From: Vibrio taketomensis
GTDB taxonomy: Bacteria > Pseudomonadota > Gammaproteobacteria > Enterobacterales > Vibrionaceae
Direction: 5' to 3'
Length of the DNA stretch: 64,000 bases
NCBI RefSeq assembly: GCF_009938165.1
Contig: NZ_AP019649.1
Location: forward strand, 992,001-1,056,000
The notes under the pieces were generated by a model. That model did not search any database, was not told where the DNA came from, and saw only the letters and a program-made list of their open reading frames with translations. Below are positions 18,955-26,491 of this stretch, in pieces (the first letter of the stretch is position 1; the number at the start of each line of letters is the position of its first letter). Made by a program: the position numbers and the translations under genes.

Positions 18955-18969
18955 TTGATACTCACTGAT

Positions 18970-19014
18970 CGATCAAAAAAAGCCACTTCTATTGAAGTGG
19001 CTTTTTTTGATCGA
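18970..19014 (+). terminator. Strong Rho-independent terminator after aspS
   Basis: Stem AGCCACTTC / GAAGTGGCT with loop TATT, extended by pairing of the A- and T-runs and an outer ATCGATCA/TGATCGAT palindrome. Nearly symmetric, so it can also serve the converging BLUF gene. Confidence 0.92.
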
Positions 19015-19067
19015 TAAAGAGTGCAAAAGAGAGTAAACCCGATGAGCGCTCTACTATTTCAATACTT

Positions 19068-19466
19068 CTACGCTTGTTGTGTCGAGAAGTCATTTGGGTA
19101 GAGAAATAGAGTTCTTGCTTTGAGGATTTCAAACAAGGCTAAGCCGTCTGTGCATTTGAGTTGCTCAATCATTTGGTCATCATCAATGTAGACATGGCCC
19201 ATGCTCCAATCCTGATACATTCTTTGCTCGATGTTAGCTTCGAGCAATGTGTTAATGTGGCAATGTCGTTTGTCTGCACAGATCTCTTCATAAAGGTCAT
19301 CGAGAGTCGATGATTCCCCTTCAATATATTGAATAAACCCTGAGGAATGGGACATTAAAAAACCGGTAACATTGAGCCGTGCATTTTTCTCAATTGCGGC
19401 GGCGAGAAGTTGCTGTAAATCGACATCACTCAATTTTGCATCGCTGCTGTAGAGAATAAATTTCAA
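19068..19466 (-). CDS. BLUF-domain blue-light photoreceptor
   Basis: Short (132 aa) BLUF protein binding FAD and sensing blue light. Residues that align with the known photocycle set are all present: Y6 (ILYSS), N28 (KNAR), Q46 in GFIQYIEG, and W87/M89 in DWSMG; DKRHCH is also typical. No output domain is attached, only a C-terminal helical tail of about 35 residues. It starts at a TTG that overlaps the TGA of the upstream diguanylate cyclase gene; an AGAGGAG ribosome site stands seven bases before it. The overlap implies coupled synthesis and suggests that the photoreceptor controls the cyclase in trans (inference). Confidence 0.88.
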   Translation of the reverse strand: MKFILYSSDAKLSDVDLQQLLAAAIEKNARLNVTGFLMSHSSGFIQYIEGESSTLDDLYEEICADKRHCHINTLLEANIEQRMYQDWSMGHVYIDDDQMIEQLKCTDGLALFEILKARTLFLYPNDFSTQQA

Positions 19467-20236
19467 ATCAGTCTCCTCTTGTTTTTGTACATCAAAGAAT
19501 CGGCAACTTTTATGGTTTTGAAAAGGTCAAATTCTTCGTTGTAGGCCCAGCCAACACTGTATTGAATATTAGAGGCTTGAGTTTTTGAGTGTAGCTGATA
19601 ATCAATGCGTTCGATTAATACGTTTGGTTCGATATGCTCATTTAAAACAATGACGACAAATTCATCACCACCATAACGAAATACAAGGTCTGTCGCTCTG
19701 AGTGACTCAAGTAGGGCGTTGGCAAATGTTTTGAGTACTTGGTTACCTGCTTCGTGCCCTTGCGTGTCATTAACGGCTTTCAAGTTGTCTAAATCAAAAA
19801 AGAACAGTAGAAAGTTTTGTTGAGAAAGGCGTTCGTTCAGGGACTTAAGATAGTCAAAGCAAAGTGCTCCAGTCAGACTATCTTTGATGCTCATGTCTTT
19901 CATTATCTTGGTGCTGAAATCAAGCAGCTCAATGTAACGTAATCCAAGTCGTTGATAGGTAACTTTATCGAGGTCTAAATTAAAGGCAAAGCGAGCTGCG
20001 TGGTGGAGAAGATCAATTTTTCGATCAATAGTGCGATTGGTGATGTGACTTTGACTAGCAAAATTGTTGCCACCATCGGAATCGCTCAGTAGAAAGCACA
20101 ATACATCAAACGCATAACAGATATCATTGAGTTCCAAATCGGGGACTCGCTCTGCTAAGTACGCTTGGATTTTAGCGCATTGCTTTATGATATCGATGTC
20201 TAAGGTGCCACCGAACTTGGTGTACGTATCGCTCAT
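19463..20236 (-). CDS. GGDEF diguanylate cyclase coupled to the BLUF gene
   Basis: 257-residue soluble protein with a helical N-terminal domain of no recognised family (about 1-115) and a GGDEF domain (about 116-257) that makes c-di-GMP. The active-site motif is intact (RYGGDEF, residues 187-193), and an inhibitory I-site RATD (180-183) sits the canonical five residues before it. MSIKDSLTGALCFDYL is the usual domain start, and FFFDLDNLKAVNDTQGHEAGN contains the metal and base-binding residues. Start ATG at 20236 has AGAGG upstream. It overlaps the BLUF gene by four bases, so the two are translated together. Confidence 0.9.
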   Translation of the reverse strand: MSDTYTKFGGTLDIDIIKQCAKIQAYLAERVPDLELNDICYAFDVLCFLLSDSDGGNNFASQSHITNRTIDRKIDLLHHAARFAFNLDLDKVTYQRLGLRYIELLDFSTKIMKDMSIKDSLTGALCFDYLKSLNERLSQQNFLLFFFDLDNLKAVNDTQGHEAGNQVLKTFANALLESLRATDLVFRYGGDEFVVIVLNEHIEPNVLIERIDYQLHSKTQASNIQYSVGWAYNEEFDLFKTIKVADSLMYKNKRRLI

Positions 20237-20457: not shown

Positions 20458-20973
20458 TTAGCTGAATCGTGTTCTTAGCCACAATCCCCACGGTGTGGTG
20501 ATACCTGAAGTGAGATATTTGATTTCGCCATCTTTGACAATCGCAATCGTCGGAGTGACGCGAATTCCCCATTCAGTGCTAACAGGATGTTGGGCATCAT
20601 TAATCGCGGAAAACTGAAATTGTTTAGCATCGAGATAAGATTGGATACGTGCGTTATCGCCGGATGAAAGCGCTACCGTGACCACTTGATGATCATTTGC
20701 AAACCAATCTATAACCGGGCTAACCCACTTACAAGCGCCGCACCATGTCGCCCAGAAATAGACAATCACAGGGTCACCTTGTTTGCTGAGTGCATTAACG
20801 TCGATATGGTTACCGTTAATATCGACAGTTTGAATTTCCGGTGCTTTACCTTTTGGTGCAGAGCTACTGTGATAAAAATCCATCGCATAGGATGCAACGG
20901 CAATGATCACGAGTGCTAAGCAAAACTCCTTCAGCCAATATTTCCAACTGGATTTTTTTGTCGCGCTTTTCAT
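20458..20973 (-). CDS. scsD: ScsD-like membrane-anchored thioredoxin-family protein
   Basis: Periplasmic thiol-disulfide oxidoreductase tethered by one N-terminal helix (about residues 12-31). The redox motif is WATWCGACKW, and the cis-proline loop is RVTPTIAIV, as expected for TlpA/ScsD-like proteins. 171 aa. It overlaps the scsB-like gene by four bases (ATGA). In Salmonella the equivalent proteins protect periplasmic thiols during copper stress; no scsA or scsC is present here, so the substrate may differ. Confidence 0.82.
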   Translation of the reverse strand: MKSATKKSSWKYWLKEFCLALVIIAVASYAMDFYHSSSAPKGKAPEIQTVDINGNHIDVNALSKQGDPVIVYFWATWCGACKWVSPVIDWFANDHQVVTVALSSGDNARIQSYLDAKQFQFSAINDAQHPVSTEWGIRVTPTIAIVKDGEIKYLTSGITTPWGLWLRTRFS

Positions 20974-23072
20974 GGTTGGCTCGCTCGTTTAATCGCATCG
21001 ATAACTTGTGTGTCAGATAGAATCACTGGTAGAGCAATCCCTTGAGGCGCAGATGGGCCATAGATAATATTAAACGGCACGCCGTAGCGTCCATGGCTTT
21101 GTAGATACTGCGTAACGTTCTCGTTTGGCGTCGTCCAATCACCGAGCATCAATACCATATTCGGCTTCTGCAATGCACTATAGACAGGGTCTTGCAGTAC
21201 GACACCAATCTTGTTGGCTTTACACGTAATACACCAATCTGCGGTGACTTCGACAAATACGGTTTTGCCTTGCTTAGTTAATGCGCTGATTTTATCTGCT
21301 TGCAGTTTTTGCCACGGAAGATCATCGACGATTGGCGTCGCCCAGTTATCAGCAGTAAGGCTACCAATGACTAAGCTACTCCCGCCAAGTAGTGTCATAA
21401 CGGCAATAAGCGGAACCAAAAGTTTGCGCCCATGAACACGGCCTAGCCATATTAGGCTTATGACCATAATAATGGTTGATAGAACTAGCACGACAAATTT
21501 ACCGAGAAATGGCGTCAGTAAGTTGGTGAGCCAAAGGGTTGTCGCCAGCATCATAAAGCCAAACAGCAACTTAATACGGTCCATCCATAAGCCCGGTTTT
21601 GGCATAAATGCGATTAAACGAGGCGCAATAGCAAACAGTAACCAAGGAAAGCTCATACCGATGCCAAGGGCGATAAATATGATCCACAGTTCAAGGTAGC
21701 TTGCACCCAGCGCATAAGCGACCGCAGTGCCTAAAAATGGTGCACTACAAGGCGTGGCGAGTAGGGTGGCAAACATACCCTGAACAAAATGACCAAGATG
21801 GCTACTGTCACCTTGAGTGGCGGCCCAAGTGTTGAGGCGACTTGGCAGCTTGAATTCAAATAATCCCAGCAGGTTTAATGCAAATAGCAGCGTTACAATC
21901 AGCATCAATAGTAGAAACTCAACGCTTTGGAATTGAATGCCCCAACCAATACTTTCTCCGCCGATTTTTAGCAGAGTTAATGCACCTGCGATCAACGCAA
22001 ATGAGCTGATGATCCCCAGTGCTGAAGCGATAAAAGAGGTGCGAATATGACGCACAGACGCTTGTTGTTGCAGCGCAATACTATTGAGTTTCAAACCTAG
22101 TACAGGTAATACGCACGGCATAATGTTGAGCAGTAATCCACCCAACAGCGCAAAACCCAACATGGTCATCAAGTTAGTTTGGCTATATTCAATCGGCGTT
22201 GTGCCCACATCGGCGCTCAGTTCTGTAGCAAAGGTTTGATCTGATATGGTTATTGTGACTGCTTTGCCTGTTAGATCGGCATGACCTTTCCAGTTACTGA
22301 CATCGAAGACTGCGGTCAGTTGGTATTGATTCGCTCCAACGTTGTTGTTGATGGTTAGAGATGGCGGCGCAAAAAACTCTTTTTCCACTTGTTTGCCATC
22401 GACCAATACTTGCGGCGATTGCCACGCGTGTTGGTTAGTCAGTTGCACCACAAACTGTTGTTGCTCTGCATTCCAGTAGGTGCCAGCGAGGTTAACCTTT
22501 GGATTAACTTTGGGACTTAGGCTCATTCCCTGATTGAAAAGAAACATGGCATCAGGATCGAGTGTCAGGTTTTTAGGATCAATCTTTAGATCGATTGGAT
22601 AATCGGTGATCACACAGATATCGGTGCAGGACGGTAAGCGTAGGTTGCCTTCAAGTCTTGCCGCTTGATTGGCATTTTCGAGCGTCAGAGTGAGTGGAAA
22701 GCTCACTTGATGCTTGTAGCCTAACGTCATGATTCCAAGTTGCTCAAAATAATGAGGTATTGGCCAATGCCATTGGACGGATTCAATGTTAGTGGATTCG
22801 GACCAGTGTAGTTCAGGGGCAATGCCGGCTTCACCTGGGCTTCGCCAGTAGGTTTTCCACTCTCCGTCAAGCCGCACATCAAGTACTGCTTGCACTTGTT
22901 TTAATTGTGGTTGCTGCTCACCTGTTAATAGCAGACGTAGTTTAACTGGAGGATGCTTGGCATCGGTTATCCAATCAGTGCTTTGCGCAAAGCTAACATA
23001 GGAAAATAAAGTGCTAATTAGCAGAATGAAAACAACAACAAACTGTTTGATGTAGCGAATGTTTGGCGACAC
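20970..23072 (-). CDS. scsB: ScsB/DsbD-family thiol:disulfide interchange transmembrane protein
   Basis: Moves electrons from cytoplasmic thioredoxin to periplasmic partners. An N-terminal signal and large periplasmic domain (with CTDICVITDY) precede about eight membrane helices holding the redox cysteines in NIMPCVLPVLGLK and TPCSAPFLG. The C-terminal thioredoxin-like domain carries DWCITCKANK. At 700 aa it is larger than classical DsbD, as ScsB is. Start is a GTG. Its operon partner is the ScsD-like gene. Confidence 0.86.
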   Translation of the reverse strand: MSPNIRYIKQFVVVFILLISTLFSYVSFAQSTDWITDAKHPPVKLRLLLTGEQQPQLKQVQAVLDVRLDGEWKTYWRSPGEAGIAPELHWSESTNIESVQWHWPIPHYFEQLGIMTLGYKHQVSFPLTLTLENANQAARLEGNLRLPSCTDICVITDYPIDLKIDPKNLTLDPDAMFLFNQGMSLSPKVNPKVNLAGTYWNAEQQQFVVQLTNQHAWQSPQVLVDGKQVEKEFFAPPSLTINNNVGANQYQLTAVFDVSNWKGHADLTGKAVTITISDQTFATELSADVGTTPIEYSQTNLMTMLGFALLGGLLLNIMPCVLPVLGLKLNSIALQQQASVRHIRTSFIASALGIISSFALIAGALTLLKIGGESIGWGIQFQSVEFLLLMLIVTLLFALNLLGLFEFKLPSRLNTWAATQGDSSHLGHFVQGMFATLLATPCSAPFLGTAVAYALGASYLELWIIFIALGIGMSFPWLLFAIAPRLIAFMPKPGLWMDRIKLLFGFMMLATTLWLTNLLTPFLGKFVVLVLSTIIMVISLIWLGRVHGRKLLVPLIAVMTLLGGSSLVIGSLTADNWATPIVDDLPWQKLQADKISALTKQGKTVFVEVTADWCITCKANKIGVVLQDPVYSALQKPNMVLMLGDWTTPNENVTQYLQSHGRYGVPFNIIYGPSAPQGIALPVILSDTQVIDAIKRASQP

Positions 23073-23284: not shown

Positions 23285-23975
23285 TCAGAGCGTAATTTCT
23301 TTCCATTCACCAGGTTGTAGATCGCCAAGTACAATATCACCCATTGAATAGCGAATTAAGCGCAGCGTCGGGAAACCGATGTTGGCGGTCATGCGACGTA
23401 CTTGACGATTGCGTCCCTCAATAATAGTGATGGCCAGCCAAGTAGTTGGAATACTGGCGCGAAAACGCACGGGTGGATTACGCTCCCATACTTGTGGCTC
23501 AGGCATGATTTCGACTTTTGCAGGGAGTGTCATTCCATCCTTAAGCTCAACCCCTTTGCGCAGTTTATCCAAGTCGACTTGCGTTGGCGCACCTTCTACT
23601 TGTACCCAATAGGTTTTCGGAGATTTTGAGTTTGGTTGAGTCAGTTTTGCCTGCAAAATCCCATCATTAGTGAGTACGAGTAAGCCTTCACTATCGCGAT
23701 CAAGGCGTCCTGCAGCATACACGTCTTTTACCGGAATAAAATCCGCCAATGTTTTACGCCCTTCACCGTCAGTAAATTGCGTTAGGGTGTCGAAAGGCTT
23801 GTTGAATACCAGTACTTTTCGTTCTTGAGGTGAAATTCTTGGCTTGTTTGACGGCGTTTTTACGTTTAGAAGAAGAGTGTCGAGTAGCCGTACCGAGCTT
23901 ATCAGTCTGTTTGAAACGCTTTGTCGTTCGTTGCGTTGAATTTTTTGGTGACGGACGACGAGAACCGTTTTGCAT
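23285..23975 (-). pseudogene. rluE: RluE, 23S rRNA pseudouridine synthase, frameshifted near the N-terminus
   Basis: The catalytic part reads [14 protein letters not shown], then [15 protein letters not shown] (catalytic Asp in GRLDRD) and [12 protein letters not shown], the RsuA/RluE family pattern. RluE makes pseudouridine 2457 in E. coli 23S rRNA. The ATG at 23975 opens a basic N-terminal tail of the same protein in another frame, which stops after 68 residues. Removing one base from the five-T run at 23857-23861 joins the two frames ([18 protein letters not shown]). The whole gene would then be about 229 aa. Either a real +1 frameshift or a consensus error; translation from an internal start would lack the KPF loop. 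Confidence 0.82.

Positions 23976-26491
<2,516 letters not shown>

Follow-up and report, generated by a model that had tools for sequence, protein, structure and literature searches.

The short BLUF photoreceptor and the GGDEF diguanylate cyclase encoded by two overlapping genes in the window, which is the whole 64,000-nucleotide stretch of Vibrio taketomensis DNA that was analyzed, probably form a dedicated two-protein switch for c-di-GMP synthesis, in which the BLUF protein, on sensing blue light, would act in trans to control the cyclase; we put the probability of this reading at roughly three in four. The observations behind it are the intact parts, the strict linkage of the two genes, and their common descent, and it is the joint inheritance of both genes that makes a single light switch probable. 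The features concerned are the following.

19463..20236, minus strand: GGDEF diguanylate cyclase gene, 257 codons (ORF and Pfam match; in the clade of ten paired cyclases)
19883..20236, minus strand: cyclase residues 1-118, N-terminal helical region and stalk helix, of no recognized family
19466..19882, minus strand: cyclase residues 119-257, GGDEF catalytic domain (PF00990 at residues 129-254)
19688..19699, minus strand: cyclase residues 180-183, RxxD inhibitory I-site (RATD), with RxxD in 10/10 paired cyclases
19658..19672, minus strand: cyclase residues 189-193, GGDEF active-site motif, unchanged in 10/10 paired cyclases
19473..19477, minus strand: AGGAG, ribosome-binding site of the BLUF gene, within the cyclase gene and 6 nt before the TTG (by eye)
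19463..19466, minus strand: TTGA overlap, comprising the cyclase stop TGA (19463-19465) and the BLUF start TTG (19464-19466)
19068..19466, minus strand: short BLUF photoreceptor gene, 132 aa, TTG start (PF04940 and ORF)
18968..19015, no strand: perfect 22-nt inverted repeat with T-runs, in the intergenic space where aspS and the BLUF gene converge

The four-base overlap between the BLUF start and the GGDEF stop, from which the original prediction had set out, is read directly from the letters TTGA. Because of this overlap and the ribosome-binding site inside the cyclase gene, we infer that the two genes are translationally coupled: the cyclase would be translated first, and translation of the BLUF gene would restart at the cyclase stop codon, giving matched amounts of the two proteins. 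The inverted repeat downstream is likely a bidirectional terminator common to aspS and the BLUF gene, and is absent from the list returned by the terminator scan. Promoter-like sites were found in no excess (4, compared with 4.4 expected from shuffled sequence). The host genome, 4.3 Mb in two contigs, contains no second BLUF gene by profile match at E 0.001. Just upstream of the cyclase gene is a pair formed by a thioredoxin-like gene and a gene that we take to be DsbD-like (20458-23072, minus strand), which themselves overlap by 4 bases.

The catalytic domain of the cyclase matches PF00990 with an E-value of 6.2e-25, its I-site lies five residues upstream of the GGDEF motif, and the metal and nucleotide residues, D148, N156, and D157 along with others, are invariant among the nine aligned paired cyclases. 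The protein has the residues expected of an active diguanylate cyclase, a predicted product-inhibition site included, and the earlier description of a GGDEF protein with intact active site and I-site holds. In the structural model, the block-mean pLDDT is mostly above 90 for the catalytic domain and 47-80 for residues 1-118, where helices are placed at residues 14-30, 36-50, 67-85, and 91-117. That this N-terminal region belongs to no recognized family, as had also been proposed, is borne out by searches of three kinds: it has no Pfam match at E up to 1, no NCBIfam family, and no significant match in a PDB sequence profile search (best E 0.31). It is the fastest-diverging part of the cyclase, with 13-26% identity between subgroups, and in hhalign comparisons, for which 40 of 47 controls were run, the window's group and G700 are demonstrably homologous here, while the signal is weak for G094 and about at background for G174, G200, and G283. 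Structural matches of the cyclase model span mainly residues 86-256, so that they barely test the residues before 86, which are modeled at low to middling confidence. In the two of four comparisons with unsaturated synonymous change, dN/dS is 0.04 to 0.16 for each gene and for each of the two cyclase parts.

How often the pair recurs was assessed in a sample of the window's family (296 genomes, of which 97 have a BLUF match); the 132 hits in 131 loci represent about 130 genes (L015/L127 and L021/L128 are the same BLUFs encountered twice), and the GGDEF and EAL genes beside each were found with profiles built here. A GGDEF-only gene lies directly upstream of the BLUF gene, on the same strand and overlapping it, in nine of these cases, whereas for the other ~121 BLUF genes of this sample the position immediately upstream is never taken by a GGDEF-only ORF; one further family BLUF overlaps an upstream GGDEF-EAL gene. 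Wider samples of 369 genomes of the class and 394 of the order added three more BLUFs of the paired kind (G700, G814, and G434). The first of these, from another family, makes a tenth pair, in which the BLUF gene overlaps such a cyclase gene by 26 nt if a GTG start is chosen. The overlap is 4 nt in seven of the ten pairs, 11 nt in G283, 26 nt in G700, and 35 nt in G094, the last two values depending on the start codon chosen, and AGGA occurs in the 25 nt that precede the BLUF start in eight, the exceptions being G283, which has GGGAG, and G094. The original prediction had staked itself beforehand on the two genes occurring together in relatives, and they do: BLUFs of the paired subfamily immediately follow a GGDEF gene of this kind in 9/9 cases in the family sample and in 10/12 over all samples, and both partners form clades. 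The distribution of the pair is, however, patchy and rare, as seen from its presence in 9 of 296 family genomes and 4 of 394 order-sample genomes, from the orphan BLUFs, and from a search of 15 relatives beside the window's own genome, where only G434 gave a match. The orphan BLUF genes (L245, 1498-1881; L219, 1468-1884) belong to the paired subfamily but have no GGDEF gene beside them. In neither of their genomes was a cyclase of the paired type found elsewhere, with none at E 1e-25 in G814 and with a best score in G434 of 93 bits, covering the GGDEF part only, versus 231 bits for the G700 pair; this type of BLUF can therefore exist without the cyclase. No fusion of a paired-type BLUF to a GGDEF domain occurs among the BLUF hits of the family, class, and order samples. 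On plasmids, identity to the cyclase is at most 35% among the 12 of 832 matching records listed, one further record outside those 12 falling in the 60-80% band, and identity to the BLUF protein is at most 42% among the 15 of 101 matching records listed. Viral contigs yielded no confirmed relative of the paired-subfamily BLUFs. A cyclase scan of genome contigs returned general GGDEF relatives, with a BLUF profile match (E 0.001) in none of the 80 kept loci.

A tree of 174 distinct BLUF ORFs (minimum length 100 aa) unites the ten paired BLUFs with the two orphans in a single long-branched clade (SH-aLRT 99); this tree was built by a quick method, carries long-branch warnings, and leaves out duplicates and the short fragments L028, L120, L122, and L232. 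The ten paired cyclases are likewise a single clade (SH-aLRT 99) in the cyclase tree, which comprises 105 motif-carrying GGDEF domains taken from some of the loci. Both trees keep the window's five-genome group together and group G174, G200, and G283; in the BLUF tree the orphan G814 falls within this latter group and G434 next to it. They disagree on G000, which goes with G183/G212 in the BLUF tree and with G158/G062 in the cyclase tree, and on G094, which joins G700 in the BLUF tree only. In the window's group, aspS lies on the BLUF side in four of the five pairs, and in the fifth, G158, the upstream neighbors are as in the window and the contig ends just after the BLUF gene; pairs outside the group, as seen for four pairs and G700, have different surroundings. 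The occurrence of the pair at several different chromosomal places argues that it is inherited as a two-gene cassette. The correlation of identities between partners (r 0.92-0.94) was set aside as evidence because shared descent alone would produce it.

Such linkage could also reflect co-expression only, with both proteins taking part in a light response but BLUF having a different target and the cyclase a different regulator. Short BLUF proteins elsewhere do have unrelated partners, as exemplified by BlsA, which is reported to act through Fur (PMC5955987), and the two orphans fit such independence. We nevertheless consider this alternative rather unlikely, because the order and strand are the same and the genes overlap in 10/10 pairs across several surroundings, both partners form clades, and the cyclase has no other input domain recognized by Pfam or NCBIfam.

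The evidence for a partnership is in itself silent on light, and the BLUF protein might instead stabilize the cyclase, or inhibit it stoichiometrically, independently of light, for example as a sensor of redox or flavin state, with light as a side effect. The residues of the protein speak against this. The 132-residue ORF matches PF04940 (E 8.2e-25, 87 bits against a cut-off of 25) and carries Y6, N28, Q46, W87, and M89, in agreement with the original description of an intact BLUF protein, and all five, including the Trp and Met, are unchanged in 10/10 paired BLUFs even though overall BLUF identity drops to 32%, which makes a role independent of light improbable. These Tyr, Asn, Gln, Trp, and Met residues presumably occupy the corresponding photocycle positions of AppA. 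A C-terminal tail beginning RTLFLYP (19086-19115, minus strand) is common to the five BLUFs of the window's group and absent from the other four aligned pairs, and is a candidate contact segment. Chance adjacency without functional meaning, which nothing was found to favor, although GGDEF genes are so many (up to 71 first-look candidates; six genomes) that some neighbors are expected, was rejected as exceedingly improbable on the strength of the census, with its ~121 other family BLUF genes lacking such a neighbor and its recurrence of pairs in different surroundings, and of both trees.

If BLUF does control the cyclase in trans, the switch might work as follows. Because its key residues are intact, the BLUF protein would bind flavin and undergo the usual Tyr-Gln hydrogen-bond switch. 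It would bind the cyclase in trans, most likely at the N-terminal helical region or the stalk, the helical region being the likely docking site. By altering how the cyclase dimer is arranged or how stable it is, light would then switch the conversion of GTP to c-di-GMP, on or off alike being possible, and product inhibition would operate through the intact I-site. A more specific version, to which we give even odds, is that the pair is a dedicated cassette in which the separate BLUF protein docks on the cyclase via a previously unrecognized helical domain. The pair would then be a diguanylate cyclase gated in trans by BLUF, the reverse of PapB-PapA in what it does to c-di-GMP, and would amount to an optogenetic cyclase that occurs naturally in two parts.

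According to a 2022 review (PMC8846402), light sensing in c-di-GMP signaling is carried out either by photosensory domains inside GGDEF/EAL proteins or by short photoreceptors with EAL proteins as their targets, and in the accessible part of its Table 1 BLUF appears only with phosphodiesterases or as a regulator of one; no description of a BLUF-controlled cyclase in trans was found in the accessible portions of the open-access literature on BLUF. The closest known system is PapB-PapA of Rhodopseudomonas palustris, of which the window's pair is the putative synthetic counterpart. In both, a short BLUF protein acts, or would act, on a separate c-di-GMP enzyme, in PapB-PapA by protein contact according to that review (PMC8846402), but PapA is a solo EAL protein that degrades c-di-GMP, whereas the enzyme in the window has an intact GGDEF active site and lacks an EAL domain: Pfam identifies GGDEF and nothing else in it, where a PapB-PapA-type system has an EAL phosphodiesterase. 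SiaC-SiaD of Pseudomonas aeruginosa resembles the pair in another respect, SiaD being a small cyclase that has N-terminal helices plus a stalk and is activated by a separate partner (PMC8457831). SiaD is the first structural match of the window's cyclase, tied with others, and also matches it in a PDB sequence search over residues 91-233, but the similarity does not extend beyond residues 88-256, the GGDEF domain with its stalk helix, and the score against the NCBIfam SiaD equivalog is 85 bits versus a cut-off of 290. The neighbors of the window's cyclase gene are the BLUF gene on the 3' side and the thioredoxin-like gene on the 5' side by Pfam, and SiaC is not known to be a BLUF protein. BldP combines BLUF and EAL domains in one chain. 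BLUF-EAL proteins (BlrP1, BldP, and E. coli BluF/YcgF) likewise tie BLUF sensing to c-di-GMP-type enzymes (PMC8846402, PMC3509220), but BlrP1 and BluF/YcgF are single chains with EAL in place of GGDEF. SesA, Cph2, and the phytochrome-activated cyclases share with the proposed switch a GGDEF activity changed by light, but have a bilin photoreceptor in the same chain (PMC5812497; structural matches 5llw/5llx).

If the proposed switch is real, BLUF control in trans would extend beyond the regulation of EAL proteins to c-di-GMP synthesis, these bacteria could couple blue light directly to lifestyle choice, and the pair would offer a compact, flavin-based two-protein tool to change c-di-GMP with light. 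Because ten divergent pairs have been located, the interface could be mapped by swaps of cognate and non-cognate partners.

Other BLUFs stand beside EAL, GGDEF-EAL, and GGDEF genes, so that the window's pair seems to be one instance of a broader tendency for short BLUF genes to be located next to c-di-GMP genes. Elsewhere in the order, a BLUF gene overlaps a downstream EAL-only gene by 16 bases in a PapB-PapA-like arrangement (L248, 689-1899), so both types, with EAL and with GGDEF partners, exist. A second kind of pair consists of a GGDEF-EAL gene with an altered GGDEF motif followed by a different BLUF (L114, 3695-5501; L260, 67-1866; L267, 1411-3208); the genes overlap in L114 and L267 and are separated by 12 nt in L260, and genes resembling STAS and response-regulator genes by eye lie downstream in L114. 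In L249, a GGDEF gene of another kind, with a PAS-like N-terminus by eye, lies 126 nt upstream of the BLUF gene. A different BLUF is divergent from a GGDEF gene of 323-335 aa in L020, L138, and L194, while in L120 (G180) and L122 (G020) the BLUF is reduced to a fragment and the GGDEF gene remains; the GGDEF domains of these five loci form one clade.

Upstream of the cyclase gene, G158 also has the DsbD-like and thioredoxin-like genes, and in G062, G183, and G212 a pseudouridine synthase gene is the next gene instead. The window's own pseudouridine synthase gene, presumably of the RluE/RsuA type (23285-24065, minus strand), is read in two frames that cover orthologue residues 4-69 and 71-261, with the switch near 23859, and is thus either a frameshifted gene or an assembly error.
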